Of a stretch of DNA of 23,346 nucleotides, positions 2,334 to 21,435 are shown piece after piece; the first letter of the stretch is position 1, and each line of letters opens with the position of its first letter. The notes beneath the pieces are model-generated. The model ran no database searches. It was not told where the DNA came from and saw only the letters and a list, made by a program, of their open reading frames with translations. The translations under genes were made by a program, and so were the position numbers. The stretch comes from a virus, in the IMG/VR virus record IMGVR_UViG_3300042516_006151, positions 1 to 23,346 of that record; one strand, given 5' to 3'.

Positions 2334-2385
2334 GCTCTATTCATCCCTTGGAAGGGGGCAAGTATCAAGGGTTTTCTATCGTGTT

Positions 2386-4201: not shown

Positions 4202-5504
4202 TGATTTTGTCCTCCAGCAGTTCTCGGTATGTTTGGCCAGTCGCTTGGTGAATAGCGGATTGCCCGCTAACCTCTTGCCAACGACGAATCGTGGTATCCA
4301 CATAGAGGGGTTCTAGCTCGATGCCGTAGCAAATCCGTCCGCATTGTTCTGCGGCGATTAAGGTGGTCCCTGAGCCTAGAAAGGCATCGAGTATGATTTC
4401 ACCCCGAGCGGAGACATCTAAAATGGCATCTTTGACCATTTCAACCGGTTTAACGGTGGGGTGCATTTTGAGTTGATTTTTATCTCCGCCAAAAGAGTTG
4501 ACCCCTGGGTAATCCCACACATTGGTTCGGTAGCGTCCGTGTGAACCAAGTTCTACATTGTTGTGATGCGAGCGGTTGCCGTGCTTGAAGACAAAGACGA
4601 GTTCATGCTTGGAGCGATAGAGCGACCCCATGCCGCCGTTGTCTTTATTCCACACGCAGAGGTTTTTAAACTCGTCATACACGGCGGTGCCTGCTTCAAT
4701 GATCTCCTTAATATGTCGCCAGTCCATGCAAATATAGTGGAGCGATCCATTCTTTGAAAAAGCCTTTAGGAGGGTGAAGTTTTTCTGTAAAAAGTGTTGG
4801 AATTCAGGGGAAGACATTTCCCCTGACGCCATTTGAAACTCCTTATGCTTGATTTTTCCTAAGCCGCCAATATGCCCCTCTACCTTGACGTTGTAGGGAG
4901 GGTCGGTAAAGACCATACTCGCTTTTTTGTCTTGGCATAAGTTCTGATAGGTTTGGGGAAGAAGGGCATCTCCGCAGATGATTTTATGCTTACCTAAAAG
5001 CCATGTGTCGCCAAGGGTTGTGACAATTTCATGCTCGGGTACAAAAGGGACGGCATTGGCGTGTTCATCTAACGGGGTGTTTTTGTCTGCGAGCTGTTCA
5101 TCCAGAATCAAGTCAATGTCGGCGATGTCAAAACCTGTAATTTCCAAGTTAAACTCTAGATCCAACGCTTCTAGCTCCAAGAATTCGAGCTTCAATAAGT
5201 CGACGTCCCATTGCCCGTTTTCCGTGAGTTTGTTGTCAGCGATACGATAGGCTTTTTTCTGGGCTTCACTCAAATGCAACAATCTAATCACGGGTACTTC
5301 ACTCAACTGAAGTTCTTGAGCCGCCAGCCACCTGCCGTGACCTGCAATGATTTCATTCTTTTCGTCAATGAGAATGGGATTGTTGAACGCAAAGGTTTGA
5401 ATCGATTGAGCAATTTGCGCAATTTGTTTACGCTGGTGAATTCGTGGATTCTGCTTATAAGGCTGAATCGTCTTGGTGTTGACATACTCAAGGTGTAAGG
5501 TCAT
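4194..5504 (-). CDS. ParB-domain DNA methyltransferase (beta-class, adenine or cytosine-N4)
   Basis: A 436-residue fusion. Residues 1-135 form a ParB/sulfiredoxin-like domain with the motif EIIAGHGRWLAA (51-62). Residues about 160-436 form an amino-methyltransferase with TDPPY (200-204) before the AdoMet-binding motif DAFLGSGTT (373-381), the order of the beta class. Such fusions are common in phages and prophages and modify DNA at short sites; no partner restriction enzyme is visible here, so it is probably a solitary phage-type enzyme. The ATG at 5504 has AAAGGAG nine bases upstream, while the ATG at 5543 has no such site. The gene follows the HTH gene by 81 nt and overlaps the DUF5681 gene by 8 nt. 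Target base and sequence cannot be read from the protein. Confidence 0.85.
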   Translation of the reverse strand: MTLHLEYVNTKTIQPYKQNPRIHQRKQIAQIAQSIQTFAFNNPILIDEKNEIIAGHGRWLAAQELQLSEVPVIRLLHLSEAQKKAYRIADNKLTENGQWDVDLLKLEFLELEALDLEFNLEITGFDIADIDLILDEQLADKNTPLDEHANAVPFVPEHEIVTTLGDTWLLGKHKIICGDALLPQTYQNLCQDKKASMVFTDPPYNVKVEGHIGGLGKIKHKEFQMASGEMSSPEFQHFLQKNFTLLKAFSKNGSLHYICMDWRHIKEIIEAGTAVYDEFKNLCVWNKDNGGMGSLYRSKHELVFVFKHGNRSHHNNVELGSHGRYRTNVWDYPGVNSFGGDKNQLKMHPTVKPVEMVKDAILDVSARGEIILDAFLGSGTTLIAAEQCGRICYGIELEPLYVDTTIRRWQEVSGQSAIHQATGQTYRELLEDKINA

Positions 5505-5585
5505 TTGGGGAAGCTCCTTTAGGTTAGGGGATAACTTCACCATACACGAATGAGGAGCGATTTAAAATGTGGATAACCGCAGACT

Positions 5586-6290
5586 TTAGTCGAGCGTCAA
5601 TACTTGTGCCAATTCAATCACGACGAGTCGTTTGCTATTTTTATCTTTTAGGTCATCTAAGCCAAAGCGTTCTCTTATTTTGGCACAGTTGTTTTCAATA
5701 GTGCGTTCACTACAAAAAATATGTTCAGCCAGTGCCTTATTCGTTATCCATATACTATTTTTAAACGCCTTGAGAATCTTGCGTTCCGTTTCTGAAAGGG
5801 AGATCTTGCCTTCTTCAAAATGCTTAACTGCGACCTGAAACAGATCCTTTGTATAAGCGTCGTCGGTTTTTAGCTTCACCAGCACGTCTGCTGGGAGTTG
5901 AGCTTTGAGATCGTCCATCGTGCGAGTGCTTCGTTTGTCTAATAAGCGGAGATACGTTTTAGAAGCGTCATAGTCCACCTTTTTAAAGAGATCCAGACTA
6001 TCTTGAAGCAATTCCCCAAAGGGGAGGTTTTGCTGGGTGGACAGCACATAGAGTTCAACCACTTCAGGGAAGCTGATGCCGTCTAATACCGAGCTGTCGA
6101 TCTGTTTACGATCGAGTTCAGCGAGGATACTTTCAGAAATATCTGCGTTTATTTTGAAATGCTCTTCGGCGTTTTGCCAGTCGATCTGATGGAGTTTGTG
6201 GACAAACGCGTTCGCCTGCTTTTCAAAGGCTTTCATTTCCTTCGAGTTTAAAGCCGATTCAATTTTCTGAACAATGGCGAGAAGGCTCAT
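5586..6290 (-). CDS. LuxR-type helix-turn-helix protein directly behind zorD
   Basis: A 234-residue soluble protein. The last 70 residues (about 165-231) form a GerE/LuxR-like DNA-binding domain: LSETERKILKAFK, then NKALAEHIFCSERTIENNCAKIRERFG, then a final helix ending RLVVIELAQVL. The N-terminal 160 residues are acidic and helical (EHFKINADISESILAELDRK) and I do not recognise them. No phospho-acceptor receiver domain or autoinducer domain is evident. AGGAG sits eight bases before the ATG, and the gene begins 32 nt after the zorD stop, so it is almost certainly co-transcribed with Zorya. It could be the operon's own regulator or an added component. It could instead belong with the methyltransferase and terminase genes that follow. 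Confidence 0.75.
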   Translation of the reverse strand: MSLLAIVQKIESALNSKEMKAFEKQANAFVHKLHQIDWQNAEEHFKINADISESILAELDRKQIDSSVLDGISFPEVVELYVLSTQQNLPFGELLQDSLDLFKKVDYDASKTYLRLLDKRSTRTMDDLKAQLPADVLVKLKTDDAYTKDLFQVAVKHFEEGKISLSETERKILKAFKNSIWITNKALAEHIFCSERTIENNCAKIRERFGLDDLKDKNSKRLVVIELAQVLTLD

Positions 6291-6322: not shown

Positions 6323-9300
6323 TTATTCTGATGCTAATTGAGAAAGTAAGATTCCTGGTTTAATCGGTGTCACATACTCTAAATCAAACAAATTGCTTCG
6401 TAAGGCTCGTTTTTGCTTGAGTCGCTCATTTAAGTTTTGCTCAAATGAGTGCTCCGCTACAAAATAATAAACAAAGACATCTTTCTTCTGCCCTGTACGA
6501 TACGCCCGACACGTCGCCTGATCTTCCACCGCAGGGTTCCACCATCGGGTAAGATGAATCACGTGATTCGCTTCTTGTAAGTTTAAGCCCATGCCTGCAC
6601 ATTTGGGCGAAAGAACTAAAGCACTAAAGCCTTTGGTTTCTTGAAATCTTGCTAACACGGCTTGACGCTCTTCTAATGAGACTTGACTATTAATGGCGGT
6701 TAAATCTGTGCCATAACGTTGATTAACAAAGTCTTGAACGATTTTTTGATACAAATGCCACTCACAAAAAATAAGGACTTTTTCTTGCTTATCAGCAATA
6801 GCTTTTAATAATTCTTCCAAACGCTGTAAACGATGCGATGCTTGAATCCATTCTTCCACGCTCGCATGTTGTGCCTGAAACGATTGGTACAAAAACGGAT
6901 GCACACTTAATTGTTTGATGCGTTGGATTTTTTGCAACTCCGTCTGACCCGATCTGGAAATACGGCGAATTTCTTCAATCGTTTTAGCTTGTAATTTCAC
7001 CGAAATATCGGTTTCGATTTTTTGAGGCAGTCCTTGAGCGACTTTTTCTTTTAAGCGTCCGTTAGCAAAGCCTTCACTAAAGCATCCGAATTTGAGGGCT
7101 TCGTTGAGTTCTTCAAACGCCTTTTCTTTTTCTTGGGTACCACTTTCGTGGAAAAAGGGTTTATAGGTTTTCCGGAATGTGGTGAGCGAACCCAGCAAAC
7201 CTGCAACAGCGGTATCCATGATATTCCACAATTCATTCATGTCATTTTCGATCGGTGTACCACTCATTAGGAGGGTAAAAATTGCTTTGGAGGTCACTGC
7301 TTTTAACGATTGCGACACATTTGTGGAAGCTGCCTTGGCTTTCTGTACTTCGTCACACAAGACCACCGACCACGACACCTGAGCCAGCGAATACTGATAG
7401 TTCACCAATGTGTCATACGTAATCACAATGCAACGAAAGGCCGAAAGCTTGTCAATATCGAGCAAGGCTTGTCGACCTAAGGCAAGCTCCGTTCCCTTTA
7501 AATGACGCTTGTTTTCTAAATAATAGTCGCGAATGTTTTTACCATGTAGTTGCAAAAATTTAAAATCACGGGCATTTTCAAAAGCGTCATGGGCTTGTTT
7601 TTCAAAATTATCTAACAGAATAGGCGGAACAACAATCAACACAGGATGCTTACAATGATCAGATTCAAAGGCTTGTGCATCAAGCTTTAAAGGAGAGTTT
7701 TCGCAACGTTCTTTCCAATAGCTTTGCATCATTAAACGAAGAAAACAGAGGGTTTGAAGGGTTTTTCCTAAGCCCATGTCATCTGCCAATAGCACGCCTG
7801 AACGCCCACGCATAAAAGAAAGTAATAACCATCCCACACCTTCTTTTTGATAGTTAAACAAGTTGAAGTGAGGCTTGAGTTTCAAATTTTCCCAAAGCAG
7901 GGAGCTTAATTTTTCTTGATCATCCTTCGTTAAAGTCGAATAGTCTAAACTGGCTTGATTCATCAAAATCTGAAGCACTAAACGCTCCGTCTTTTGGGAG
8001 GGAATCTTTTCTTTTGTTTCGTGAGGGTTGGGATTTAAGGGGTGTTTATTCCATTTTTGATGAGCTTGCTTAATTTTACTTGAAAAAACTTCCAAAGCGT
8101 GTGTGTGATTTAAATCCAATGAGATGGGTACTTTTGTTTTTTCACAAAAGATGGGTAAAAGCGTATTTTCTTGATGAGCCTTTAGGGCTTGCTCTTCTAA
8201 GGGATATAGCTTTTCAGGGGGCAGATAAATTGGGACATCTGAAAAACCTTCAAATTTTACAAAAGGCTTACCATTCTCCTCCACAATAGAAACGCTTGTA
8301 TCGTCGATAAAATCATCATCGATGCCATCCAGTATGGATCTACTATCTGTTTTACCAAAAATCCCCGCTGTTTTAATGGGGGGACCTACCCCAATTACAC
8401 GATCACCATAGTGGTTTAAATCAATATCAAATACGTCTTCAAAATCAGCATCTAAAGGGACTCCTCCTTTTTTCAGGAAGAGGTTAAGAATCGTGTCTTC
8501 TTTTTCTTTTGTGATATTTTCTTTGATGAATAAAAACTGACGTTTCATTTTTGGCGTTAGCACAATTAAAAGGGAGTCTTTCGTCGCTGTTTCTACTTGT
8601 AAGGTTTCGCTATTACCGTCCCAATAACGCATGGCACGTTGCATGGCTTGAATGGCTTCTTTTTTGTCAGGAAACCCCAAAAACGTTGGTAGATCATCAT
8701 GAAAAGGAATAAAATCCGAAAGCGTTGTGTCTTCTAGGTTTGGGCGAGCTTCTGGCGTGAAGCGTGGCAAGTAAATCGTCCGCTGCCCTACCAAACGCCT
8801 GTCGTCTAACAGAAGTTCATGGTGAGAGTCCTGCGTATTGACCCAATTTTGAACAGCTTGTAAAAAAGCCACGACTTCTTTGGGACTTACTTCAAAACGT
8901 TCTTGTAAAAGGGGAAGGGCTTGATACAAGTCCAAGACCCACGCAGGGAGCAACCCATACGGCTTTTTCTTGTCGTGTGTCGGATACATCAAGCCATGTT
9001 GTGAAATGATATTTTTAAGACCCTGCATCCCTAGTAAATAGACGTCTAAATGCAAATCATGTGTGCCTTCGAGTCGAAACACGACCTTCACCCCACGATT
9101 CATTTCTAAGGGAGGCAAGGCGAGTCTCACCTCATCCCACACAGAATCTTCTACGATTTGAAGCCCTTCACCGTCTTCGACAATACGTTGCGTATGAGCT
9201 GTTTCTTCAGGGCTTCTTGGATCATCCGCCGAGTGTAGCATCGACGTTAAGGCGTGGGGGATTTGTGAGTCGTTTAGTTCAGGCAACAGCGACTCTATGA

Positions 9301-9520
9301 CGTGTTGCCATGCGAGGGCGTAGCCTTTGGAGGAAGTGGAAAAAGGAGACGTACTAAAAAAGCGATGAGATGCTTCGTCTAAATAGGACTCTTTTATCTG
9401 TAAAATCAAGTGGGATGTCGTGGGGCTTAGCTGAATAAAATTAAAGGAATTGGTAATCCCCACTACTTGAGGCGATTTTTTTGTCGGTTTAAATAAGTCT
9501 ATCAAGCCTTGTAACATCAT
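6323..9520 (-). CDS. zorD: ZorD, SNF2-type helicase/nuclease effector of type I Zorya
   Basis: A 1065-residue protein. The C-terminal half is an SNF2-family motor: LADDMGLGKTLQTL (motif I, about 575-590), LCDEVQKAKAA (motif II, DEVQ, about 720), LLMSGTPIENDMNELWN (motif III, about 752), LVLSPKCAGMGLNLQ (motif V) and WWNPAVEDQATCRAYRTGQ (motif VI, about 1005). The N-terminal 540 residues lack a motif I know, but length and layout match ZorD of type I Zorya, the DNA-degrading effector recruited when the ZorAB motor senses phage entry. The ATG at 9520 lies 6 nt beyond the zorC stop. A second in-frame ATG follows immediately. All motor residues look intact. Identification rests on the motifs together with the zorA-zorB-zorC order. 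Confidence 0.92.
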   Translation of the reverse strand: MMLQGLIDLFKPTKKSPQVVGITNSFNFIQLSPTTSHLILQIKESYLDEASHRFFSTSPFSTSSKGYALAWQHVIESLLPELNDSQIPHALTSMLHSADDPRSPEETAHTQRIVEDGEGLQIVEDSVWDEVRLALPPLEMNRGVKVVFRLEGTHDLHLDVYLLGMQGLKNIISQHGLMYPTHDKKKPYGLLPAWVLDLYQALPLLQERFEVSPKEVVAFLQAVQNWVNTQDSHHELLLDDRRLVGQRTIYLPRFTPEARPNLEDTTLSDFIPFHDDLPTFLGFPDKKEAIQAMQRAMRYWDGNSETLQVETATKDSLLIVLTPKMKRQFLFIKENITKEKEDTILNLFLKKGGVPLDADFEDVFDIDLNHYGDRVIGVGPPIKTAGIFGKTDSRSILDGIDDDFIDDTSVSIVEENGKPFVKFEGFSDVPIYLPPEKLYPLEEQALKAHQENTLLPIFCEKTKVPISLDLNHTHALEVFSSKIKQAHQKWNKHPLNPNPHETKEKIPSQKTERLVLQILMNQASLDYSTLTKDDQEKLSSLLWENLKLKPHFNLFNYQKEGVGWLLLSFMRGRSGVLLADDMGLGKTLQTLCFLRLMMQSYWKERCENSPLKLDAQAFESDHCKHPVLIVVPPILLDNFEKQAHDAFENARDFKFLQLHGKNIRDYYLENKRHLKGTELALGRQALLDIDKLSAFRCIVITYDTLVNYQYSLAQVSWSVVLCDEVQKAKAASTNVSQSLKAVTSKAIFTLLMSGTPIENDMNELWNIMDTAVAGLLGSLTTFRKTYKPFFHESGTQEKEKAFEELNEALKFGCFSEGFANGRLKEKVAQGLPQKIETDISVKLQAKTIEEIRRISRSGQTELQKIQRIKQLSVHPFLYQSFQAQHASVEEWIQASHRLQRLEELLKAIADKQEKVLIFCEWHLYQKIVQDFVNQRYGTDLTAINSQVSLEERQAVLARFQETKGFSALVLSPKCAGMGLNLQEANHVIHLTRWWNPAVEDQATCRAYRTGQKKDVFVYYFVAEHSFEQNLNERLKQKRALRSNLFDLEYVTPIKPGILLSQLASE

Positions 9521-9526
9521 GTGAAA

Positions 9527-11068
9527 TTAGTCCTCAAGGGGTTTCATATCGTGAATTTCTTCCATCATAACACGCACGGGTTCATGCCAGTTGTAGGCAT
9601 GTTGGTTATGTGTCACACGCCAATGCCGTCGTGTTTGGTTTTGTCTGAAGTAGTCAGGATTCGTCACCCCTTTAATATCGGGGGCAAGTCCCGTATGTGC
9701 CAGGTGGTGTTTAGCATCAATCTTTTGGACAGGGGTATTAGAAAAGGCTTTCTCGATAAAGTCTTGAACTGGCTTTGTCCAAGATCCAAGAGCTTTTAAA
9801 TCATAGATATAAGAAGCATTTCCACTTTCTACGGTTTCATAAATAAGCACTTTCGGCGTTTTTATCACAAAAGACGTTAAACCACTGGTGTTGAAAATCG
9901 GTTCTGTGCTGATTTTCCAATCTTGGCCCATATGGGCTTTTTCGGCATGGAACTCATCCCATTTATCGCGGGGTAAAAACACTTTAAACTCGTTGGCATA
10001 TCTCAAGTAACGTTTCCAGCAGTCTTTTCGGTGATGAGTGTCAAACCTGCCTTTAAAAATAAAGTCGAAAAACCATTCGAAATCAGCTTTATTAAACCAA
10101 TACAAAATTTCATTATAAATGGCTTGTTCTTGAGATTTGAGAAGGCTCCATTTTTCAGGGTCTTTTCGAGGGTCACCCATAAGGTTGATAATGGTCTCTT
10201 GTTCTTGAGGTGAAAGACTATTTTCTAACGCCGTAAAAATGATGGCAAAACGACGGGTACCTTCTCGCATGGTTAAATCGCAAAACACACTCAACAAAAA
10301 GCGTAGAGTCTCACTATTTTGTGGCGTACGATTCTTCATATACTCATTCAAGCATTCGGTGAAATACACGTCGACACTTCGTTGCACGATGTATTCATCC
10401 GCATAAAGCGTGAGTCCCAAATGCTGAAAACAGCCTGATTTAATCTCGTTTAACACGTTTTGTTCATGTGACTGCTTCGTTTTTAAGGCGGACACTATTT
10501 TTTGAACCAACTGCTCGATATAAGCGGTGTGCTTATCGTCTTTTAACCAACGTTTATAACGAGCGAGTTCTTTTTGTTGCTCTTGAATCTGCGCTAAGTT
10601 GTTTGGCAAGGGTAAACGTCCAAGTAAGACTTTCCCCATGCTTTCCAAACAACTGAACCATATGTTGCAGTTAGGGTGCGGATCTTCTTGCAAAATGCAA
10701 AATCGCCAAACGCTAGCATGCAACCATTTATAGACCCTTGGGTGAGGAGCTTGCAAGACGATAAAATCCATAAAGTCGGTACGTTCGAGTAAAACACCTT
10801 TGCCCATGGTTAAGCCTCGACGAATCATTCGCACAATTTCTTTATTTTGGTATTCGTTTTGTTCAAGAAACGCATACCATTCTTGGGTAATATCAACAGG
10901 CGGCGGAGGCGGTGGGGGTGGCGGAGTAGGTCCACCCCGCTCCTCAATTTTTACCCAAGTAGTGGGGTCTGCTTCAAACTTTTTCGCAAAGGCTTCATAG
11001 CCTAAAATGGCTTCACTTAAGCGACCCAACTTTTTACGAGTGTCTTCAAAAAACGCCGTTTCCGCCAT
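9527..11068 (-). CDS. zorC: ZorC, EH-signature domain protein of type I Zorya
   Basis: A 513-residue cytosolic protein. The C-terminal region has features of the EH-signature domain: FDTHHRKDCWKRYLRYA, KTPKVLIYETVESGNASYIY and the final NQTRRHWRVTHNQHAYNWH segment. ZorC binds DNA and is needed with ZorD for type I Zorya defence. An unusual feature is a run of nine prolines (49-57) after ERGGPT, which separates a short N-terminal helical segment from the body and may be a linker; translating it would depend on EF-P. The start codon shares one base with the zorB stop (TAATG), showing tight translational coupling. At 513 residues it is in the family's range. The identification depends partly on position between zorB and zorD. 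Confidence 0.87.
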   Translation of the reverse strand: MAETAFFEDTRKKLGRLSEAILGYEAFAKKFEADPTTWVKIEERGGPTPPPPPPPPPVDITQEWYAFLEQNEYQNKEIVRMIRRGLTMGKGVLLERTDFMDFIVLQAPHPRVYKWLHASVWRFCILQEDPHPNCNIWFSCLESMGKVLLGRLPLPNNLAQIQEQQKELARYKRWLKDDKHTAYIEQLVQKIVSALKTKQSHEQNVLNEIKSGCFQHLGLTLYADEYIVQRSVDVYFTECLNEYMKNRTPQNSETLRFLLSVFCDLTMREGTRRFAIIFTALENSLSPQEQETIINLMGDPRKDPEKWSLLKSQEQAIYNEILYWFNKADFEWFFDFIFKGRFDTHHRKDCWKRYLRYANEFKVFLPRDKWDEFHAEKAHMGQDWKISTEPIFNTSGLTSFVIKTPKVLIYETVESGNASYIYDLKALGSWTKPVQDFIEKAFSNTPVQKIDAKHHLAHTGLAPDIKGVTNPDYFRQNQTRRHWRVTHNQHAYNWHEPVRVMMEEIHDMKPLED

Positions 11069-11721
11069 TAAGCTTGCCCTTCTTTCAAGGTGCTTTCTAG
11101 CTGATTGCGTTGTTCTCCCGATTTTACCCGAATACGCACTTCCACACGACGGCTGGCTGGCTTGTTTTCGATCCGCTTGGTTTTAGGGTCAAAATACACT
11201 CGTTCTTGTTCGCCACGCCCATTCACATACAGCCATTTTAATAAATCGTTGCGTTCTTGTGAAGGTGGAATAACATAAGAAACGACAAAACGCCCCACGG
11301 CAAAGGCTCGTTGCTGGCTTAATTCTAGGTTATGTTCATCGTTGCCGTCGGAATCCGTAAAGCCTTGAATATACAAGGATTCCACATTGGGACGCACCGC
11401 AGATTCACTCAAAACGTGCATGACTTTGGGGAAGACTCGTTTAATAAAAACTTGCCCTTTGGGGTCAATGTCTGCCTTATTCACCAAAAAACGGAGCTTG
11501 TCATCAGGCAAGCGAATGATGCACGAAAGGGGATCCTTTTCATCTGTTTCGCAACGTAGCGATTCAATCGCTAAAGACGCATCAATTTTTTGCTGGATTT
11601 CTTTCAAAGCGGTTTGGCTTCCCTGTCCTTGGTTTTGAGCGAGAGCAAGCATTAGCAAAATGAAGACTACTGCTAAAGAAGTCATTAAATCCGTCATAGA
11701 AGATTCTAAGTTTAATGCCAT
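11068..11721 (-). CDS. zorB: ZorB, MotB/OmpA-like subunit of the Zorya motor
   Basis: A 217-residue inner-membrane protein. A short N-terminus precedes one transmembrane helix (about 11-28, DLMTSLAVVFILLMLALA). Asp11 at the membrane face corresponds to the ion-carrying Asp of MotB-like stators. The periplasmic part has Cys57 and Cys67, a possible disulfide. It then shows an OmpA/peptidoglycan-binding fold: YIQGFTDSDGNDEHNLELSQ (117-136), QRAFAVGRF and ASRRVEVRI (189-197). In Zorya two ZorB copies sit inside a ZorA pentamer, anchor to the cell wall and use the proton gradient. The gene begins 15 nt after zorA and overlaps zorC by one base. Length and topology are standard for the family. Confidence 0.93.
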   Translation of the reverse strand: MALNLESSMTDLMTSLAVVFILLMLALAQNQGQGSQTALKEIQQKIDASLAIESLRCETDEKDPLSCIIRLPDDKLRFLVNKADIDPKGQVFIKRVFPKVMHVLSESAVRPNVESLYIQGFTDSDGNDEHNLELSQQRAFAVGRFVVSYVIPPSQERNDLLKWLYVNGRGEQERVYFDPKTKRIENKPASRRVEVRIRVKSGEQRNQLESTLKEGQA

Positions 11722-11736
11722 TTTAGAACCTGCTTT

Positions 11737-13656
11737 CTATCGATTGACTTTTGGAGGAGCAACCGCTTGAATGCCTTTATCGGAAAGAGCTTCAGCGATA
11801 TTTTCCGCCATGGTTTGAATACTCGCAATAGCATTGTTATGCTTTTGGCTAAAGTCTTCAAGGTATTGTTTGCTTGACTTGGTCATGATGTTTTCTACAT
11901 TATTCGCCATTTTATCGCCTGAATCTGCAAAGGTCGTCGCAATGTTTTGAGCAAGAACATCCATAGTGCCATATTGTTGATTAAGTTGTTCCACTCGTGC
12001 TTGATGATCGCTCATCAAACCTTGTAAGTCCGTAATGCTTTGCTTTAGAGCCTCTAACTGCTCTTTGGTGAGTGTGTTGTAATCCGTATATGCACTCGCT
12101 AAATCTCTTTGAAGTTGGGTCAACTTAGCTTCAATTGCTTGAACGCCGTTTTGTACGTCAGCGATAGATTGAACATGCCCTCCTAGCTTATTAAGTAGTC
12201 CGTCTTGTGTTTTGACAAATGGGGTAAATTGGTTAGTGATCAAATTTTCAAACTTATTAAAGGCTTCGTTTAATAAGGGTGGGGCATCTTTACCAACCGT
12301 ACCAAAGTTTTGTACCGCTGTTTTAAGTTCTTCTAAAATGTCTGCTAAGTTTCCTTTAATGGTGTTGCTTGCTTGTGTAGCACTCTCTTTGATTTGTGTA
12401 ATTGCTTTTCCTGTTTGTGTTTCACTGGTTATATTGGCATTCTCTAGTTTTTCTACAATGTTTGTTAGGGTAGTCAGACTTGTATTCATCGTCTCATTTA
12501 CTGTGTTAGTATTTTCAGTTACTTGAGTCATTAAGTCGGTTACTTTGCCTGTTAATTCAGTGGTTAGCTTACCCACACTTTCACCTTGCCCTTCACCCAT
12601 TTTTGTAATGAGCGTTTCCATAGTTTTAGGCAAAGCCCCCATTGTTTTGTTGAGATCTTCAAGGTGTTGGTTAATGCCTTCACTAATCCCATTGGTTACG
12701 TTTTCTGTGCTAGCTCCTAGAGTTTCTGCAATGGCTTTCGTATTTATATCCAATCGCTCCATCGGAGGCGTAAGCTCTTCACTAATAGCAGTAGGAACTT
12801 TGCCGATAGCGTCTTTAATTTCACCGACCTGAGATTTAATCCCTTCAGAAATGGCTATTTCAATGCTTTTAATGACACCACTTTCACCGTCTAGCTTTTC
12901 AAAGCCCTCTATAACAGCCTGCGGCAGTTCGTGAACGTCTTTTTGAATCTGTAATAAAATATGTTGAGACGTCAACCGCTTAAACGAACGGTTCAACTCG
13001 TACACAATATCATCCAGCGTATGCGTCAAGACTTCCACTGCTTTTCGGTGTTGATTATCAAACACAGCAACCGCTAGAAACAAACCGATAATACTGGTAA
13101 TGAACTTACCTGAAAGGGCATTGATAAACTCCCCGATGCCTTTTATCTCGCCTACGCCTGCGTAATTCAATTTACTTAAACCAGCCGTCAACGCAATAAA
13201 GGTAAACAATAAGCCTGAACTACTCGCCCATGTCGCATAATATGACATCGGCTTGACCACAGGGTCCACCAGCAACGAGGCCTTAAAAAACTCTTCCGCT
13301 TGGTACACGTTCATCCATTCGCCGTTGTATTCCTTCACGCCTTCGGAAAACTCTCGCCATGCGTGTTGAAGTTGCTTAACCGTAGGCGACGGATTCCCGT
13401 CTCGTTCTTTAAAATAGTCGTCAATTTGATGCTTGATTGGGGGTTCATCAAGGCTAGGCTTGCTTTTTACGAGTTTTAAAAAGTCTGTTAAATCTTTGTG
13501 AGCCTTATTCTTTGCTTGGCGCTTCTTTTCCTGCCAAGCCAACCACATTATTAGGACGGCAAGAAAGTAAGTTACGACTAAAATCGTAATTTTAATGCCA
13601 AAAACGGGAGCTACGAGTTCTTTATTCAATAAAGCGATCGTGAATTCAGTTGTCAT
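11737..13656 (-). CDS. zorA: ZorA, MotA-like proton-channel subunit with long cytoplasmic tail
   Basis: A 639-residue MotA/ExbB-family protein. Transmembrane segments are visible at about 22-41 (ITILVVTYFLAVLIMWLA), 142-161 (WASSSGLLFTFIALTAGL) and 183-200 (GKFITSIIGLFLAVAVFD). After residue 245 comes a roughly 390-residue helical, Thr/Asn/Gln-rich tail with chemotaxis-receptor-like heptads (ENTNTVNETMNTSLTTLTNI). ZorA pentamers form the channel, and the intracellular tail passes the phage-entry signal to ZorC and ZorD. My impression is that this tail is somewhat shorter than in the best-studied E. coli ZorA. AAAGGA at 13665-13670 (minus strand) supports the ATG at 13656. It is the first gene of the zor run and starts 62 nt from the CRISPR array. 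Confidence 0.93.
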   Translation of the reverse strand: MTTEFTIALLNKELVAPVFGIKITILVVTYFLAVLIMWLAWQEKKRQAKNKAHKDLTDFLKLVKSKPSLDEPPIKHQIDDYFKERDGNPSPTVKQLQHAWREFSEGVKEYNGEWMNVYQAEEFFKASLLVDPVVKPMSYYATWASSSGLLFTFIALTAGLSKLNYAGVGEIKGIGEFINALSGKFITSIIGLFLAVAVFDNQHRKAVEVLTHTLDDIVYELNRSFKRLTSQHILLQIQKDVHELPQAVIEGFEKLDGESGVIKSIEIAISEGIKSQVGEIKDAIGKVPTAISEELTPPMERLDINTKAIAETLGASTENVTNGISEGINQHLEDLNKTMGALPKTMETLITKMGEGQGESVGKLTTELTGKVTDLMTQVTENTNTVNETMNTSLTTLTNIVEKLENANITSETQTGKAITQIKESATQASNTIKGNLADILEELKTAVQNFGTVGKDAPPLLNEAFNKFENLITNQFTPFVKTQDGLLNKLGGHVQSIADVQNGVQAIEAKLTQLQRDLASAYTDYNTLTKEQLEALKQSITDLQGLMSDHQARVEQLNQQYGTMDVLAQNIATTFADSGDKMANNVENIMTKSSKQYLEDFSQKHNNAIASIQTMAENIAEALSDKGIQAVAPPKVNR

Positions 13657-13717: not shown

Positions 13718-15404
13718 GTTTTGACTCCCTCTTTGAAAGACTTGTGATAGAATAACCGCAAGTTGTAGGTCTTCACCTGCCCAGTTTTGACTCCCTCTTT
13801 GAAAGACTTGTGATAGAATGTCAGGCAGTTTTAGAACGTAGAAATACATGTTTTGACTCCCTCTTTGAAAGACTTGTGATAGAATTCCCTTGAGGGACAA
13901 ATAACACTCAAAATGGGTTTTGACTCCCTCTTTGAAAGACTTGTGATAGAATCATATTCGCTATTAGCACTAGCCAATGACAGTTTTGACTCCCTCTTTG
14001 AAAGACTTGTGATAGAATCAGGCGCGCTAGGATAAGCCTCAGAATAAGGTTTTGACTCCCTCTTTGAAAGACTTGTGATAGAATATGCTAAGCGTACTCA
14101 ACGCATCACTAATCGTTTTGACTCCCTCTTTGAAAGACTTGTGATAGAATTTTAAAAGTGCCATGCCCTACGCTTACCACGTTTTGACTCCCTCTTTGAA
14201 AGACTTGTGATAGAATTTATCAAGCTTAGAGTGGCTTAACTTTCAAGTTTTGACTCCCTCTTTGAAAGACTTGTGATAGAATATTAAGGCAGACAATGAA
14301 GCAGACTATAACGTTTTGACTCCCTCTTTGAAAGACTTGTGATAGAATCTTCACAAGCAATACTAGCAACGCTTAGCTGTTTTGACTCCCTCTTTGAAAG
14401 ACTTGTGATAGAATTGAATCTCTTCTTAATATCAGCAGTGAAACGTTTTGACTCCCTCTTTGAAAGACTTGTGATAGAATCTTCCTCCCAATCAATAGCC
14501 CCTCTCCCCCGTTTTGACTCCCTCTTTGAAAGACTTGTGATAGAATTAGACTATGTGCGTTGGGCAGTCAATTAGTGTTTTGACTCCCTCTTTGAAAGAC
14601 TTGTGATAGAATGGAGCATGAACCGTATTTATTGCTTCAGCCGTTTTGACTCCCTCTTTGAAAGACTTGTGATAGAATCCTTGAGTAGCACCCACGGTGA
14701 CAATAGCGGTTTTGACTCCCTCTTTGAAAGACTTGTGATAGAATGGGGCAATCGGCTTGGATGTAGCGACCTAGGTTTTGACTCCCTCTTTGAAAGACTT
14801 GTGATAGAATGATATGAATCCTGATAAGTATAAAAAGGCAGTTTTGACTCCCTCTTTGAAAGACTTGTGATAGAATTTGTATCCCCTCCCCCTATTGTAA
14901 TAATGAGTTTTGACTCCCTCTTTGAAAGACTTGTGATAGAATTACCTTAGCGTCGATGAATCTTCAGGTGAGGTTTTGACTCCCTCTTTGAAAGACTTGT
15001 GATAGAATTTGAAAAAGTTTTCAAACATGGTATCCCCCGTTTTGACTCCCTCTTTGAAAGACTTGTGATAGAATGACAATACGCTTATAAATATCTACCG
15101 CTACGTTTTGACTCCCTCTTTGAAAGACTTGTGATAGAATGCTCCTTCCACCCTTGCAACAACCTTAGTCGTTTTGACTCCCTCTTTGAAAGACTTGTGA
15201 TAGAATTATACGATTACTTTAGTCAGTTGTATGCTTGTTTTGACTCCCTCTTTGAAAGACTTGTGATAGAATTTTCATCTATAACAGTAAAAGCATCATA
15301 TAGTTTTGACTCCCTCTTTGAAAGACTTGTGATAGAATAGTATTTCGGTGTCGTTAGTTACGACACTTGTTTTGACTCCCTCTTTGAAAGACTTGTGATA
15401 GAAT
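13718..15404 (+). CRISPR. Type II-C CRISPR array, 26 repeats and 25 spacers
   Basis: Twenty-six repeats of 36 nt (starting GTTTTGACTCCC and ending GTGATAGAAT) begin at 13718, 13784, 13850 and 13917, then every 66 nt to 15369. By eye all copies are identical, including both terminal ones. Spacers are 30 nt except the third, which is 31 nt (13886-13916). The GTTTTG start, the match to the anti-repeat at 15441-15463 and the promoter-like 3' end all indicate that crRNAs are read on the plus strand, opposite to the cas genes. All spacers look different from one another; I found no obvious match of a spacer to this window by eye. The uniform repeats suggest an array that is intact and perhaps still active. 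Confidence 0.98.
13745..15404 (+). promoter_or_regulatory. Extended -10 promoter element repeated in every CRISPR repeat
   Basis: Positions 28-36 of each repeat read TGATAGAAT, an extended -10 (TGnTAnAAT); the first copy is at 13745-13753 and the last at 15396-15404. TTGACT at repeat positions 4-9 resembles a -35 but is 21 nt from the -10, too far for a standard promoter, so the extended -10 probably does the work. Transcription would start inside each spacer. This layout is known from type II-C arrays of Neisseria meningitidis and Campylobacter jejuni. Confidence 0.6.
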
Positions 15405-15407
15405 AGG

Positions 15408-15436
15408 TTTACATTTCGTTAGAATTCGAGTAGAAT
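15408..15436 (+). promoter_or_regulatory. tracrRNA promoter (TTTACA, 17 nt, TAGAAT)
   Basis: A near-consensus sigma-70 promoter: -35 TTTACA at 15408-15413, a 17-nt spacer and -10 TAGAAT at 15431-15436. It begins only four bases after the last CRISPR repeat. The predicted start, about seven bases downstream (near 15443), coincides with the beginning of the anti-repeat. Confidence 0.75.
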
Positions 15437-15442
15437 ATCCCT

Positions 15443-15576
15443 ATCACAAGTCTTTCAAAGAGGCTAAGCCAGAACTGAGTGAACATCTTTTGAACCTCTA
15501 CACGTTACGTTCGATTGCATGTTTAATTTAATTTTAACACAAACTGCTCCCGATTTTAAAAGGAGCTATTTGTGTT
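15443..15576 (+). ncRNA. Predicted tracrRNA for the type II-C system
   Basis: The plus strand at 15441-15463 is an exact 23-nt reverse complement of repeat positions 11-33 (CTATCACAAGTCTTTCAAAG plus AGG). After a six-base bulge (CTAAGC, 15464-15469), CAGAAC at 15470-15475 pairs with the first six repeat bases GUUUUG, with one G-U wobble. This gives the lower stem, bulge and upper stem expected of a crRNA:tracrRNA duplex. A strong promoter directly precedes it. A 13-bp hairpin at 15536-15576 probably forms the 3' end. The middle part (15476-15535) shows no strong nexus hairpin by eye. The RNA would direct crRNA maturation with RNase III and bind Cas9. The 3' end is uncertain. Confidence 0.8.
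15536..15576. terminator. Hairpin between tracrRNA and cas2
   Basis: AACACAAA (15536-15543) pairs with TTTGTGTT (15569-15576), and GCTCC (15546-15550) pairs with GGAGC (15562-15566). The two stems are separated by a 2x2 mismatch and enclose an 11-nt loop. No clean T-run follows on either strand. It could be the 3' hairpin of the tracrRNA and may also end the convergent cas transcript, whose last stop codon is at 15596. Confidence 0.6.
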
Positions 15577-15595
15577 GTTACGTTGATAAATATGT

Positions 15596-15946
15596 CTAAA
15601 ATAAGAGCATTTGCTCGGCAACGGCGTCGCCTGCAATGGCTCGTTTATGGCTTTTAAAATCAATGGCACCCACCATGTATTCTGCCTTTGCCCATTGCTT
15701 TTCGGTAATAAAAATGCAAATCACACTCCCCCACGGAGGCACCATGCCTCGTACTTTCCCCCGAAGGGATTCCACCTTTTCCAAGGTTACCCCATGACGC
15801 ACATACACGCTTTCTTGCAACATTTGGTAGCCTTGATCCAACAAAAACTTACGAAACTGATTCGCCGCACGCATTTGTGCTTTTTCGGTCACAGGTAAGT
15901 CAAACATCACCATTAACCACCCCATTTGGTACTCCATTCTAGCCAT
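15596..15946 (-). CDS. cas2: Cas2, CRISPR adaptation endoribonuclease-fold subunit
   Basis: A 116-residue protein with the Cas2 ferredoxin-like fold: MGWLMVMFDLPVTEKAQMRA (the MVMFDLP strand holds the conserved Asp), FLLDQGYQMLQESVYVRHGV and WGSVICIFITEKQW. Cas2 dimers bridge two Cas1 dimers in the spacer-insertion complex. I chose the ATG at 15946 because AAAGGG lies six bases upstream. An in-frame ATG at 15979 adds 11 residues and lacks a ribosome binding site. The gene is 57 nt behind cas1 in the same direction and ends 20 nt from the hairpin that closes the tracrRNA region, with which it converges. Confidence 0.9.
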   Translation of the reverse strand: MARMEYQMGWLMVMFDLPVTEKAQMRAANQFRKFLLDQGYQMLQESVYVRHGVTLEKVESLRGKVRGMVPPWGSVICIFITEKQWAKAEYMVGAIDFKSHKRAIAGDAVAEQMLLF

Positions 15947-16003
15947 GGGTAGCCCTTTCCGCTTACATATTAAGTCCATAGTATGGCTATAAGTACCGTG
16001 AAC

Positions 16004-16966
16004 TTAAAAATGTGCGTGTCGCATATCAGGTAGAATCAAGCCGTTCACGCTATGCTGTTCGATGCAACGCCCCAAGCTACTGATGTTCAGTTCGACCACA
16101 TCCACCAGTTTCTTTTGAGGCTTGCCTGCTTCATAAGTCACACGTACGTCCTGCAAAACTTGCATGGCATCCTTGCACCAGCCCTTCCATGTGGCTTCGT
16201 CTTCTAGTTCTTCCGCCGAAGCATCAATCACATGATGCCACAAGGCGTAATCCACATAAGGGCGATACGGTTCCACCACGTCATACACTAGCGGTTGCCC
16301 CTTATAAGACACCTGATGATGTAAGCCCAAGAACGGCATAAGTCCACTAATCAAACAGGCCCGATGAATCAGCGTTTTGATAATCGCGTAGCCGTAATTC
16401 AGCCGAACATTGACGACATCTTCCGCCCCTTGCTTATGCCGTTTACGGACGTTTAAATGCTCAAGCGACTCATAAAAATGCTTCCAATAACAGCGTGCAG
16501 CATTGGCTTCATCCAAATGGGGACGCTCCACAATCTGTTGGAGCGCTTCCGCCCCTGCTTGAAGCCCTAGGCGTTTAAGGACTTCGATTTGATTATGGAT
16601 TTTGCATTGTACAATACGGTGCCAAAGGGCTTGGCGTGTGGCATCCGTGAGTTCAAGTTGAGCATGGGTCAGGGTGTGACGCTTGCTTTGAAAGGTGGGG
16701 AGCGTCCACGCCACAGGCTGATGCTTTTTATTGCAGTGTAGAATGGCCGCATTGGCTTCCACGAGTTGGGTAATGGCCACGCCTGTAATGGAAACGGCAG
16801 GGGTGGCAAGGACCACCATGCGGATTTCTTCAAAGGGAATACCTGTACTTTCAAGGACTTTGCCGTCGGGGGCGTAGGTGTCTTTAGGGAAACTTACGAC
16901 GAGTAAGCCCCGATCGATTTTGAGCTTACAGCCGATGCTACTAATGGTTAAAATATGGTGCGACAC
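16004..16966 (-). CDS. cas1: Cas1, CRISPR integrase (type II)
   Basis: A 320-residue Cas1. The N-terminal beta domain includes TGIPFEEIRMVVLATPAVSI, and the helical domain carries the metal-binding residues: Glu153 in LDEANAARCYWKHF, the His pair 216-217 in GLHHQ, and Glu232 within LVYDVVEPYRPYVD. The motif order and spacing match type II Cas1. With Cas2 it inserts new spacers into the array; in type II systems Cas9 helps choose protospacers. The start is GTG (complement of 16964-16966) with AAAGGA ten bases upstream. The gene lies between cas9 (60 nt) and cas2 (57 nt) in one transcription unit. No csn2 or cas4 is present, which supports subtype II-C. Confidence 0.95.
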   Translation of the reverse strand: MSHHILTISSIGCKLKIDRGLLVVSFPKDTYAPDGKVLESTGIPFEEIRMVVLATPAVSITGVAITQLVEANAAILHCNKKHQPVAWTLPTFQSKRHTLTHAQLELTDATRQALWHRIVQCKIHNQIEVLKRLGLQAGAEALQQIVERPHLDEANAARCYWKHFYESLEHLNVRKRHKQGAEDVVNVRLNYGYAIIKTLIHRACLISGLMPFLGLHHQVSYKGQPLVYDVVEPYRPYVDYALWHHVIDASAEELEDEATWKGWCKDAMQVLQDVRVTYEAGKPQKKLVDVVELNISSLGRCIEQHSVNGLILPDMRHAHF

Positions 16967-17026: not shown

Positions 17027-20000
17027 TTAAGTCTCTACAACTTCAAGACCACAGTCGATAAGATATTTAATGTTTATCGCAGGTGAACTTTCTTTATGTC
17101 CAGGCTTTTTAATTACAGTTTGTCCGTTAGATTTTAAAGTTCCTAATTCTAATGTCCCTTCATATAAGACATTATTGTAAACTAACTGCTCAGAAAGATG
17201 AATCAGACACCCCGAATTAAAAACCATGCCATTTTTATACAGCTTATAGCCTTTTTCTTTCAGTTGCTTCATTGTTTGTTTGAGACCAATATAAGGATAA
17301 ATGGGTTGAACACTAACTTTTTCTTTTTGGTTGTAATATAAAATCTGTCCAATATTTTCTTTTGTACACTTAAGCTGTACATTCTTCAAGGGTTCATTGA
17401 TGTCTACGACTTTTGCCATGTTATAGTATTTACCTATTTGAATTCGTCCGTTTGGATAAATTGTGATGTCTTCTGCTTTCGATTCTGATGAATACCTTAC
17501 CGTTACCTTGTTAGGTGTGTTCTTAAAGCGTGGGTGCTTAAAGGCTTTGATGCGAGCGTCCCATTCAGCTTTAGTGTCATTCACAAAGGGCATTAAGGCA
17601 TTTGTGATGGCTTTATCCATGAGGTCATTCAAGACTTTTTCACGCTTTTTGGCATCCAGTGCTTTAAGCATCAACTCCTGAAAGTTAGTACGTTCAACAG
17701 CAAAATATACATTTTTTTCAGAACTGTGACGGATTCCATAAAAAGTAGCTTTCGGATCTAAATCTATTTTGTTTCGCTTGATGTACTTGGGAATGACTTG
17801 TTCCAAGGCTTCACGCCCGACGTGACGCACCTTCGCTTCACAGACTTCTGCAGGGTCAAAACACCACTTTTGTACTTCAGTCGTTCCTTCGTCTTTCACC
17901 CACGATTTACGTCTGGTGTATTCACGATACCAGCTAATAATGTAGGCATCTAAGGCGTGGTGCTTACGGTTGGCTCGAAACTTTTTCACACGATCTTCAG
18001 GCTCAAGCTCTCCGATACTTTCAGGGTCGTCTAGCAAATACTTGTATAAATCTAAGTGGCGTCCAATTTGTGACGTTTCTTGCCCGTTCATGACGTAGAC
18101 AAAGCGGTCTTGATCTTTCACTTGCAAGCCCTTACCGCAATACATCGCCACAACTTGTTGTACCAAGCGTGAAATGTGAGCGGTATCCGCCAAGCCGTTG
18201 TAGGAACTGACCAAGCTTTCCGCATCAGACGAAATTAAGAGTTCCTTCTTCTTCTTAGGCAAGTGGTCACACGCCATTACACGAGCCGCAAATGCGTTAA
18301 AGGCGTCTTTCCCTTTGCTCATCATGTATTCGTAAGGGGTTTTGTTTCCTTTTTCCTTGTTGGCATTTGCATCCGCCAAAGTAAGGTTGACCCGATTCCC
18401 TGTGCCTGAACGACTAAAGGGAACCGAATGTTCGATATCCGCAAGCCCTGAACGAACATCTTCAATGGAAAGCGAACGTCCTGTGTATAAGCAGTGGCGA
18501 CCTTGTTCTTCAAGCAGTTGCAAGCGTAAAATATCTTTACCCGCCACTTGCCCTTGGGAATTACAAATACCCGCTTTTTTGAGTTCATCTCGCAAGCGGT
18601 TATTTTTTTCGGTGTGGGCTTTCAAAAAGGCGTTGTAGTCGTCTTTTTTCTTTTTGCTTTGCGTGATGGACATATCCCCACGAACAAACTCCAGCACCAC
18701 ATAATCAGGCGTACCATGCGACGCCACTTGATTTTTAAACACGCCATAAAACAACTGAAGACGATTGCGTACGACATTGTTCATACAAGTCCCAATCAGA
18801 ACTTTTTCGATATACGCTTCACGCTTGGCTTGATTCCAATCGTCAAAACTATCTCGGTTGTCTGCGATATGAATGTTGTCCCACGAATCGCCACCAAGTC
18901 GTTTGGCAAAGTCTTGCAAATCTTGAGGCGTTAAGCCTTTGCGTTTACCTTCAGGTGTTTCAGCTTGTAAAGGCTTAAACTCACCGTCTTGAGTGGGGTA
19001 ATAGCCTTTAGAAAGTAGGTCGTCCACATAGGCTTGTGGACTCAAGCCTGAAAGTAAGCAGTCTCTTAAGAGCGTAGCGGCAGGTCGGCTAAAGCGTGAA
19101 CGCCCACTGTCGTTGGGTGTCCAATTGTATTGATTCTTTGCCACTTTGTTGTCTTTAAAATGAAAGGCTCCCTCAATGAGTTTTGGCAGGGTTTTATTAA
19201 GCCACGAGGAGCTTAGAGATTCTTTTTCGTAAGCCAAGAAAGTATCCCAAACTAAATTTAGCTCATCGGGGGTTAAGCCTCGTGCTTGTTGTTTTTTCAT
19301 ATCCATAAAACGAAGATTCCGCAACATCATCAACGCTTTCGCTTGATGCACCACCACACCCTTCCAAGAGCCGTCTTTTTTCATGTTACGGCATACATGA
19401 AAACGTGGAATTAAACAACAATCGCTCAAAATACGATTGTCGAACCGAGGCGTTTTTTGACTCAATACGCCTTCCCACTCAAGCGGAAACCATTCACCAT
19501 TGATACGTGTTTTGTAAGGTCTAAAGGAGCCTCTCAATTTTTGAAACGGCTTAATTTGAAAAGGGGTATTTTTTCTTCCTGCAAAATAGGTCGCATATGC
19601 CATTTGAGCATCCCCATAAGCAAGTGTTTCGAAGGTAAGTTCTTGCACCGCACTATTTTGCGGACGTAAAACTTTCAACGCTTCAACCAAAGCTTTGAGT
19701 TCTGCCACCACCATCTCACGGGGAGCCGAACTCTTGTCATTACGAACTTTTAAAGGCGAAGCCCCTAGAGTGGATTCAATCATTTTAGGTGAAATCGGAT
19801 GCCACACGCCCAAACGAAAGGTTTCTAAGTACGCAGGCAGGTGAAAATTGTCATCTAATTGAGACTCTGTCAATTTCTTTTTGTAATCTTCTACCAGTTT
19901 TTGGTCATCGCCTTCTTTCGCTTCTTTTTCGCCCCATGCCACACCAGCATCATACCCACGACGCTGGATGAGAGACCAAAACCCCTTAAACAGTTGCCAG

Positions 20001-20350
20001 TCATTTAACGGCGTGCCATTCGGATTCGTTAAACCCTGCAAAATCGCCACACGAATAGACGCTCCGTTGTAAAGCATGCCGTCTTTACTAAACTCTTTGC
20101 CCCAACGCGTGTCTCCTCCGCGTAAATCTGTAAGCCCTAGCTTTTCCGTCCAAAACCAGCGAAACCATGTTTCACGCATCTTATGTGCCAAACGGGTACG
20201 AATCGCACGACGACGACCACTTAAACCACGTTCTGTAATTGAAGCATGATTCGCATCCACCAAATCAATGCCCATTTCCTGAACGGTGTAACCGTCACGA
20301 ACGCAATAACCAATACTTTCTTTCCCCAAGTCATATGAAAAAACGGACAT
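17027..20350 (-). CDS. cas9: Cas9, RNA-guided nuclease, subtype II-C
   Basis: A 1107-residue Cas9 that cuts DNA matched by crRNA:tracrRNA. RuvC-I is SYDLGKESIGYCV with Asp7. An Arg-rich bridge helix follows (GRRRAIRTRLAHKMRETWF, about 45-63), then a recognition lobe with IQRRGYDAG. RuvC-II is YVVLEFVRG with Glu554. The HNH domain shows CLYTGRSL and IEHSVPFSRSGTGNRVNLT with His641, then NKEKGNKTPYEYM. RuvC-III is RKHHALDAY with His797, His798 and Asp801. All catalytic residues look intact, so it should be a double-strand nuclease. The C-terminal PAM-interacting part is not recognisable by eye. AGAGG precedes the ATG by eight bases. The length and the cas9-cas1-cas2 set without csn2 or cas4 place it in II-C. 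Confidence 0.97.
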   Translation of the reverse strand: MSVFSYDLGKESIGYCVRDGYTVQEMGIDLVDANHASITERGLSGRRRAIRTRLAHKMRETWFRWFWTEKLGLTDLRGGDTRWGKEFSKDGMLYNGASIRVAILQGLTNPNGTPLNDWQLFKGFWSLIQRRGYDAGVAWGEKEAKEGDDQKLVEDYKKKLTESQLDDNFHLPAYLETFRLGVWHPISPKMIESTLGASPLKVRNDKSSAPREMVVAELKALVEALKVLRPQNSAVQELTFETLAYGDAQMAYATYFAGRKNTPFQIKPFQKLRGSFRPYKTRINGEWFPLEWEGVLSQKTPRFDNRILSDCCLIPRFHVCRNMKKDGSWKGVVVHQAKALMMLRNLRFMDMKKQQARGLTPDELNLVWDTFLAYEKESLSSSWLNKTLPKLIEGAFHFKDNKVAKNQYNWTPNDSGRSRFSRPAATLLRDCLLSGLSPQAYVDDLLSKGYYPTQDGEFKPLQAETPEGKRKGLTPQDLQDFAKRLGGDSWDNIHIADNRDSFDDWNQAKREAYIEKVLIGTCMNNVVRNRLQLFYGVFKNQVASHGTPDYVVLEFVRGDMSITQSKKKKDDYNAFLKAHTEKNNRLRDELKKAGICNSQGQVAGKDILRLQLLEEQGRHCLYTGRSLSIEDVRSGLADIEHSVPFSRSGTGNRVNLTLADANANKEKGNKTPYEYMMSKGKDAFNAFAARVMACDHLPKKKKELLISSDAESLVSSYNGLADTAHISRLVQQVVAMYCGKGLQVKDQDRFVYVMNGQETSQIGRHLDLYKYLLDDPESIGELEPEDRVKKFRANRKHHALDAYIISWYREYTRRKSWVKDEGTTEVQKWCFDPAEVCEAKVRHVGREALEQVIPKYIKRNKIDLDPKATFYGIRHSSEKNVYFAVERTNFQELMLKALDAKKREKVLNDLMDKAITNALMPFVNDTKAEWDARIKAFKHPRFKNTPNKVTVRYSSESKAEDITIYPNGRIQIGKYYNMAKVVDINEPLKNVQLKCTKENIGQILYYNQKEKVSVQPIYPYIGLKQTMKQLKEKGYKLYKNGMVFNSGCLIHLSEQLVYNNVLYEGTLELGTLKSNGQTVIKKPGHKESSPAINIKYLIDCGLEVVET

Positions 20351-20442: not shown

Positions 20443-21435
20443 CTATAAGACTCTATAACGTGTTGCACGACCTTCACCAAAGCGTTCAAGCTTTTTCATA
20501 TTGTACAACTTTTTAATTATTTCTTCAGTGGTACGATTCCCATAGCCCAAGGCTTCAACCACGTCTTTTCGAGAAAAGGCGTCTTGCGTTTTTGCCCACG
20601 TCCAAAAGGCTTGTTGCTTTTCAGAAAGTACGTATTCAAATTGATCCGCTTCAAGAAGGTTTTGTGCTTCTTGTGCTTGCTTTAACAAGACATCCATAAT
20701 AAATAAAAGCCCTGCGTCCATATCCTCTTCTTCGGTCTTCCAGCTTTTTTGAGTTTTGTTTAAGGCAAGATAATAGTCCGCCTTCTGAGCGTCTATGATT
20801 TTTTCGTGAGACACCAGCTTGGTAAACGCATAACCGTGTTGTAATAACATGAGGTTGCTTAGTAAACGACTACTTCTTCCGTTACCGTCTTGAAACGGCT
20901 GAATGGCAAGATATTCAAAAATGAAGTTAGCGATTAAAATGAGCGAGTGCTTCCCTGAATGCTGAATGGCCCAATCGTACCAGCCGAGTAGTTCATCCAT
21001 TTCCTTTTTGACGAGAAACGGTGGGGTAGGGTCAAAAATAACACCCACAATGTTCCCATTTTCATCTTTGGCTTCGACTCGGTTAGAGTCGAACTTGTAT
21101 TGCACCCGTTGGCGTTCGTCTTTGGTGCTAAATTGTAGCATGTCTCGATGAAGCTGAAGAATGTCCGATTCATTTAAAGGGATGTTCGGGTAATGGTTAA
21201 AAATGCGTTCTAGCATTTCAATATAACCCGCCACTTCTTGTTCATCTCGTGTTTTAAATGAGCGAATACGCCTTTTTTTATAGAGGGCTTCTCCGTCATG
21301 GTCTAAAAGAAGGTTGCCTTCAATACGATTTGAAACCCCTGTGGACGTCACAATAACCGATTGTGTGAGCCGATCAATGGTTTGTGGAAGCAGGTGACCT
21401 GTTAAGGCAAAGGTATGTTTGACGGCATCAGTCAC
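20443..21435 (-). CDS. Fic-domain protein with Gln in place of the catalytic His; probably 5'-damaged
   Basis: A 330-residue frame from a GTG at 21435. The Fic core motif reads IQPFQDGNGRSSR where active Fic AMP-transferases have HPFx(D/E)GNGRxxR. Residue 179 is Gln, codon CAG (complement of 20899-20901), one base from His. The N-terminal inhibitory-helix motif SNRIEGN is kept, as are EYLA, FDPTPPFLV and a C-terminal winged-helix-like region ending GRATRYRVL. Without the His, nucleotide transfer should be lost or strongly reduced. The GTG has no good ribosome binding site, and coding-like sequence continues 40 codons upstream without a start. It may be a decaying gene or an inactive regulatory form. 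It follows the same strand as cas9 with a 92-nt gap. Confidence 0.85.
   Translation of the reverse strand: MTDAVKHTFALTGHLLPQTIDRLTQSVIVTSTGVSNRIEGNLLLDHDGEALYKKRRIRSFKTRDEQEVAGYIEMLERIFNHYPNIPLNESDILQLHRDMLQFSTKDERQRVQYKFDSNRVEAKDENGNIVGVIFDPTPPFLVKKEMDELLGWYDWAIQHSGKHSLILIANFIFEYLAIQPFQDGNGRSSRLLSNLMLLQHGYAFTKLVSHEKIIDAQKADYYLALNKTQKSWKTEEEDMDAGLLFIMDVLLKQAQEAQNLLEADQFEYVLSEKQQAFWTWAKTQDAFSRKDVVEALGYGNRTTEEIIKKLYNMKKLERFGEGRATRYRVL

Follow-up and report, generated by a model that had tools for sequence, protein, structure and literature searches.

The window, by which we mean the whole 23,346-nucleotide stretch of DNA analysed here, carries a CRISPR array of 36-nt repeats (sequence GTTTTGACTCCCTCTTTGAAAGACTTGTGATAGAAT) and, on the opposite strand, a set of cas genes that ORF and protein family searches beside the array resolved into cas9, cas1 and cas2 only, with neither csn2 nor cas4 (Table 1). 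Between the array and cas2 lie a promoter-like sequence, a stretch complementary to the repeat and two hairpins. Beyond the array is a Zorya-like operon that is matched mostly by type I models; its first two genes have homologues beside the array of a related locus, L010, on a 1.49-Mb Vampirovibrio contig. These defence genes adjoin a stretch that encodes, among others, a serine recombinase and a ParB-N/DNA methylase protein, and a Fic-domain protein is encoded upstream of cas9. The record is classed as viral, and the CRISPR-Zorya stretch is found on the 1.49-Mb contig in Vampirovibrio.

Table 1. Positions and strands of features in the window, and of one element of the related locus L088 (last line, in coordinates of L088).
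Feature	Position	Strand	Remarks
Recombinase-methylase stretch	365-6290	-	serine recombinase, terminase large-subunit domain, DUF5681, ParB-N/DNA methylase protein
Zorya-like operon	6323-13656	-	ZorA, ZorB, weak ZorC, ZorD; adjoins the array
CRISPR array	13718-15404	+	26 identical 36-nt repeats, 30-31-nt spacers, 66-nt period
Terminator-like hairpin	15347-15374		in the spacer nearest the candidate tracrRNA, then first bases of the last repeat
Last repeat	15369-15404	+	adjoins the candidate tracrRNA; presumed acquisition (newest-spacer) end
Candidate tracrRNA promoter	15408-15436	+	TTTACA-17-TAGAAT; -35 at 15408-15413, -10 at 15431-15436
Upper anti-repeat	15441-15463	+	23 nt, exact complement of repeat 11-33
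Bulge region	15464-15469	+	by folding, CUA 15464-15466 opposite repeat C10; A15467-G15468 paired with repeat C8-U9; C15469 opposite A7
Lower anti-repeat	15470-15475	+	CAGAAC, pairs with repeat 1-6
Tail hairpin P2, nexus-like, conserved	15476-15530	+	outer stem; inner stem UUGAAC/GUUCGA
Conserved tail segment CCUCU	15495-15499	+	within P2
Conserved tail segment ACG	15507-15509	+	within P2
3' hairpin	15535-15577	+	between the convergent candidate tracrRNA and cas2
cas2	15596-15979	-	
cas1	16004-16966	-	type II / NMENI model
cas9	17027-20350	-	1107 aa; NCBIfam CRISPR_Cas9d 571 bits, Csn1 164 bits
Fic-domain protein gene	20443-21435	-	upstream of cas9
L088 second tail copy	9924-10017	-	upstream of cas9; half repeat and short loop fused, GTTTTGAGCCTACCCGCA-AA-TGTGGTACTGGTCTTAAC

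The original prediction placed in this intergenic region a tracrRNA that possesses its own promoter, lies in tandem with the array and converges with cas2. Its central element, a 23-nt anti-repeat exactly complementary to the repeat, is present, and because the longest other exact repeat complement outside the array spans only 10 nt, a match of this length is far above chance. The element is unique in the record, and a search for a better anti-repeat found none elsewhere in the 23,346-base virus record. The proposed pairing of CAGAAC with the first six repeat bases was likewise borne out, with one U-G wobble. The long internal bulge of four repeat bases against six tracrRNA bases that had been proposed between the two stems was not recovered, since repeat A7 faces C15469 and the supposed bulge therefore refolds as a 1x1 mismatch, two base pairs and a 1x3 bulge.

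We compared the window with related loci, giving 24 distinct Vampirovibrionia loci, window included, with a candidate tracrRNA in the same slot. Its close relatives by Cas9 sequence (81-85% identity) are L009, from a Melainabacteria metagenome-assembled genome, and L010; a search with the NCBIfam model NF049971 added distant relatives, namely L061 and L088 from the order of Vampirovibrio and a set from a second order, which, going by what is generally known of the phylum's biology, we take for the gut Gastranaerophilales. The same slot is occupied in L009, L010, L061, L088 and about 20 Gastranaerophilales loci, and wherever the contig is long enough the order is constant: cas9-cas1-cas2, a gap of 120-233 nt holding the anti-repeat, then the array. 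In three type II-C loci of the same phylum, by comparison, the gap between array and cas2 is 60 nt and the anti-repeat and tracrRNA lie upstream of cas9. Several of these loci have individual features of their own. An insertion with a transposase-like protein splits the L010 array (L010:14337-15302), and the Vampirovibrio genome that harbours L010 carries a second, distant system of the Cas9d model, L061, which has an array and a tracrRNA of its own. The cas9 genes of L062 and L063 belong to this family but are broken or partial, with a TGA codon interrupting that of L062. Among viral contigs we found one partial relative, which lacks an array.

Repeats diverge widely among the groups of loci, and every anti-repeat tracks its own repeat. 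The duplex has a common form, with a lower stem at repeat positions 1-9, position 10 unpaired opposite two or three tracrRNA bases and an upper stem beginning at position 11, and across the 24 distinct loci 22 duplex positions are altered on both sides. Computed duplex energies follow the same pattern: with its own repeat each anti-repeat reaches -45 (window), -44 (L010), -42 (L061) or -43 (L088) kcal/mol, as against -12 to -39 kcal/mol for the other pairings with the same four repeats. The assignment of a tracrRNA is thus now based on co-evolution and goes beyond sequence complementarity alone.

Downstream of the anti-repeat, the original prediction described an AU-rich middle lacking a clear nexus hairpin. 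We find that a hairpin does exist there (P2). In the window alone its stability is modest (z = -1.9), and it is covariation that supports it strongly: 13 of its 18 pairs show compensatory changes across 24 distinct rows, which include a second hit in L060 that is probably due to chance and a second hit in L088 that is the fused copy, and none of 500 shuffles reached this number. As a control, sliding the partner strand lowered the proportion of paired cells from 89% to 26-41%. Tail pair cells contain 28 G-U against 9 A-C combinations, which supports the plus strand as the RNA. Because the 3' strand of the hairpin came out misaligned between groups when MAFFT was used by itself, a covariance model took its place; this model, R1, had 16 relatives as its training set, with the window, L009, L010 and L061 left out, and both it and the alignment A5 are tilted towards the structure that was assumed. 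The best R1 site in the entire window is 15465-15529, at 19.6 bits (E = 0.011) against 9.5 bits for the next, a modest score, as distant relatives supplied the model. Elsewhere R1 gives 29.4 bits for L009, 20.6 for L010, 35.0 for L061 and 56.4 for L088, the last being part of its training set. Among 386 genomes of the phylum it matches 13, all drawn from the 14 genomes whose Cas9d match exceeds the cut-off; since most of the 13 belong to the training set, this result speaks to specificity rather than to independent discovery. Within these 386 genomes, the tail hairpin with its CCUCU and ACG segments has so far been found only beside this Cas9 family. In L097 a tandem duplication lies within the hairpin loop and leaves the stems intact (L097:4981-5066). 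An Rfam scan of the region returned no family that matches the RNA; there were sub-threshold microRNA-like matches caused by the repeat/anti-repeat hairpin, and one to an sRNA. RNAalifold proposed a further hairpin that pairs the lower anti-repeat with the linker; it would compete with the repeat, and we did not take it up.

Upstream of the anti-repeat, the predicted TTTACA-17-TAGAAT promoter proved better than any other promoter-like match in its vicinity (10 of 12 positions), in a region that holds five promoter-like sites where 0.8 are expected. Most of 25 loci have a promoter at the same place, just past the last repeat, and with the same spacing, consisting of TATACA or TTTACA, 17 nt and a -10 element, usually as TATACA-17-TATAAT. 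The exceptions are L061, which reads TTGCAT-17-TATAAT, L010 and L088, which a simple test left unmatched, and L058, where only a shifted form occurs.

A second possible source of transcripts is the array itself, as the 3' end of every repeat is TGATAGAAT, an extended -10 element that reads TGnTATAAT in most relatives; the repeats of Campylobacter jejuni also carry an extended -10 (PMC3656092). The window repeats, being identical throughout, carry no polarity signal of their own, but where relatives have degenerate repeats these lie only at the array end away from the tracrRNA, from which we infer that the end adjoining the candidate tracrRNA is where spacers are acquired. Neither the extended -10 in each repeat nor the coincidence of the two ends had been remarked upon in the original prediction. 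Both would fit a different reading of the region, in which it serves mainly to make a natural single-guide RNA and a separate tracrRNA is one of two products. The transcript would begin in the second-last repeat, take in the newest spacer and the last repeat and, past a linker of about 36 nt, run on into the anti-repeat and the tail; it would fold in cis, so that this newest spacer is loaded preferentially. An acquisition end of this kind has been reported for II-C arrays, which gain spacers at the last repeat (PMC12080349); the linkers measure 26-46 nt in the ten loci checked, the joined RNA is predicted to fold like a single-guide RNA, and L088 has a fused half-repeat/anti-repeat/tail copy upstream of cas9. 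However, most loci conserve a dedicated promoter within the linker, for which a cis-only product has no need, and the window's newest spacer contains a terminator-like hairpin. We regard a mainly single-guide role as unlikely.

A broader proposal, which we advance tentatively and would not expect to hold in full, is that the bulged duplex and CCUCU/ACG scaffold define a guide-RNA class of their own, with the tracrRNA at the acquisition end and the newest spacer used as a single guide. If this reading is true, the position of the tracrRNA means that each new spacer lands in cis with it, and new spacers could be expressed without delay as natural single guides, amounting to a built-in priority for the newest memory. 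The layout makes such an advantage of the newest spacer, conferred by the adjoining tracrRNA, testable. As for the L088 copy, it resembles a natural single-guide RNA, and self-targeting by it is not supported, the spacer-like match being 12 nt long and located in the part expected to be PAM-distal. Comparison of the window array with phage records gave one weak match only.

The prospective partner of the RNA is an unusual Cas9. It scores 571 bits across nearly the whole of NF049971, exceeding the cut-off of 375. For comparison, a Cas9 from a II-C system of the same phylum reaches 154 bits with the Cas9d model and 766 bits with Csn1. In a small tree, rooted on IscB through one very long outgroup branch and built without reference II-D proteins, the Cas9d-model proteins form one group apart from the phylum's II-C proteins with modest support (71/89). 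A sequence search of the PDB singled out no Cas9d, and the profile's best matches among solved structures are large Cas9 chains, none of them labelled Cas9d. RuvC residues D7 and E554, the HHALDA motif and HNH H641 are present in the window protein. HNH residues 638-641 read DIEH in the window, L009 and L010, and most other members have Asp before His (the usual xDH). This deviation, together with the viral classification of the record and its phage-like genes, could be taken to mean that a virus or mobile element carries an inactive system whose tracrRNA is decaying. We consider decay improbable given the 26 intact repeats and exact 23-nt anti-repeat, the open 1107-aa cas9 with its other catalytic residues, and the occurrence of the same neighbourhood on the 1.49-Mb Vampirovibrio contig.

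The 13-bp hairpin that had been predicted at 15536-15576 is real on the plus strand, although we compute it as 14 pairs, one base longer at either side (z = -5.6). It is common to the window, L009 and L010, whose alignment contains two compensatory changes; no U-run follows it and it is absent in the more distant relatives, so it would have joined the RNA late or else act as a terminator lying between the convergent units. That the whole region is only such a terminator or 3'-UTR for the cas operon and array, with the anti-repeat a leftover inverted repeat copy, accounts for a strong hairpin between convergent units and is nonetheless very improbable, since the anti-repeat covaries with the repeat, the tail hairpin covaries, the promoter is conserved, and distant relatives keep everything else yet lack this hairpin.

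We therefore return to the tracrRNA reading. Positions 15408-15530 on the plus strand very probably constitute the tracrRNA gene of the adjacent CRISPR array and Cas9 system, as judged from sequence; the coding stretch probably extends to about 15577, and the RNA itself may end near either 15530 or 15577. Three hallmarks of a type II tracrRNA are found here, namely an anti-repeat with lower stem, bulge and upper stem, a cas9 locus with repeat co-evolution, and a structured 3' tail. Because the relatives have the promoter, the repeat-matching stretch and the hairpin in common, the tracrRNA is a genuine part of the system, a component of the expected kind in a new shape. The core of the original proposal is strongly supported, its arrangement being conserved in 24 distinct loci. 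The proposal also suggested a scaffold that may be unlike those known, which agrees with the absence of any Rfam match and with the distance of this Cas9 from mainstream Csn1. Pairing, co-evolution with the repeat, promoter position, tail structure and the link to the cas9 family were all computed here, and the role in cells is extrapolated from other type II systems. In the mechanism we propose, the dedicated promoter would start an RNA near 15443 whose anti-repeat pairs with the crRNA repeat through a lower stem at 1-9, a bulge at 10 and an upper stem at 11-33, and whose tail hairpin would be the scaffold held by the divergent Cas9. By analogy with other type II systems, RNase III would trim the 23-bp duplex, and Cas9 loading and target cleavage would ensue. 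The RNA supplies a guide with which the divergent Cas9 family of Vampirovibrionia can be tested, and its tail hairpin offers a specific search model for more family members.

Among known systems, type II-C of Campylobacter jejuni and Neisseria meningitidis has the same cas9-cas1-cas2 set (PMC3656092, PMC12080349, PMC3936727). The array opposite the cas genes, the repeat-borne extended -10 and acquisition at the last repeat, deduced here from relatives, are further II-C likenesses. Against these stand a Cas9 that fits the Cas9d model far better than Csn1 and a tracrRNA located between array and cas2, whereas the phylum's three II-C loci have theirs upstream of cas9. Type II-D is the other candidate, as the window Cas9 matches the Cas9d model (NF049971; MG34 and MG102 families) over its cut-off. 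Published Cas9d proteins, however, are of about 600-970 aa (PMC11706934) and are characterised by small size and an HNH zinc finger, CX2-4C-X27-31-CX2-4[C/H] (PMC9755519), and in the 2025 classification II-D loci share an adaptation module of cas1, cas2 and cas4 (PMC12669027); the window Cas9 has 1107 aa, the zinc finger motif was not found in it, and the tested neighbours in the window include cas1 and cas2 but no cas4. The locus thus looks II-C by gene content and layout and Cas9d by model score, and we assign it to neither subtype.

The long tracrRNA of Streptococcus pyogenes is a natural single-guide RNA. Our locus resembles it, as far as general knowledge of that RNA goes, in that a joined repeat and anti-repeat transcript is possible and one fused copy exists in L088; it differs in that the window product would use the last repeat of the array. 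The RNA, whose tail carries CCUCU and ACG, has no match in Rfam. In overall architecture, the RNA follows the Rfam tracrRNAs and the described Cas9 scaffolds (PMC7606464) in having an anti-repeat, a bulge and then a nexus-like hairpin, and it is of a kind already known, of which the scaffold, together with its Cas9 partner, represents a variant absent from Rfam.
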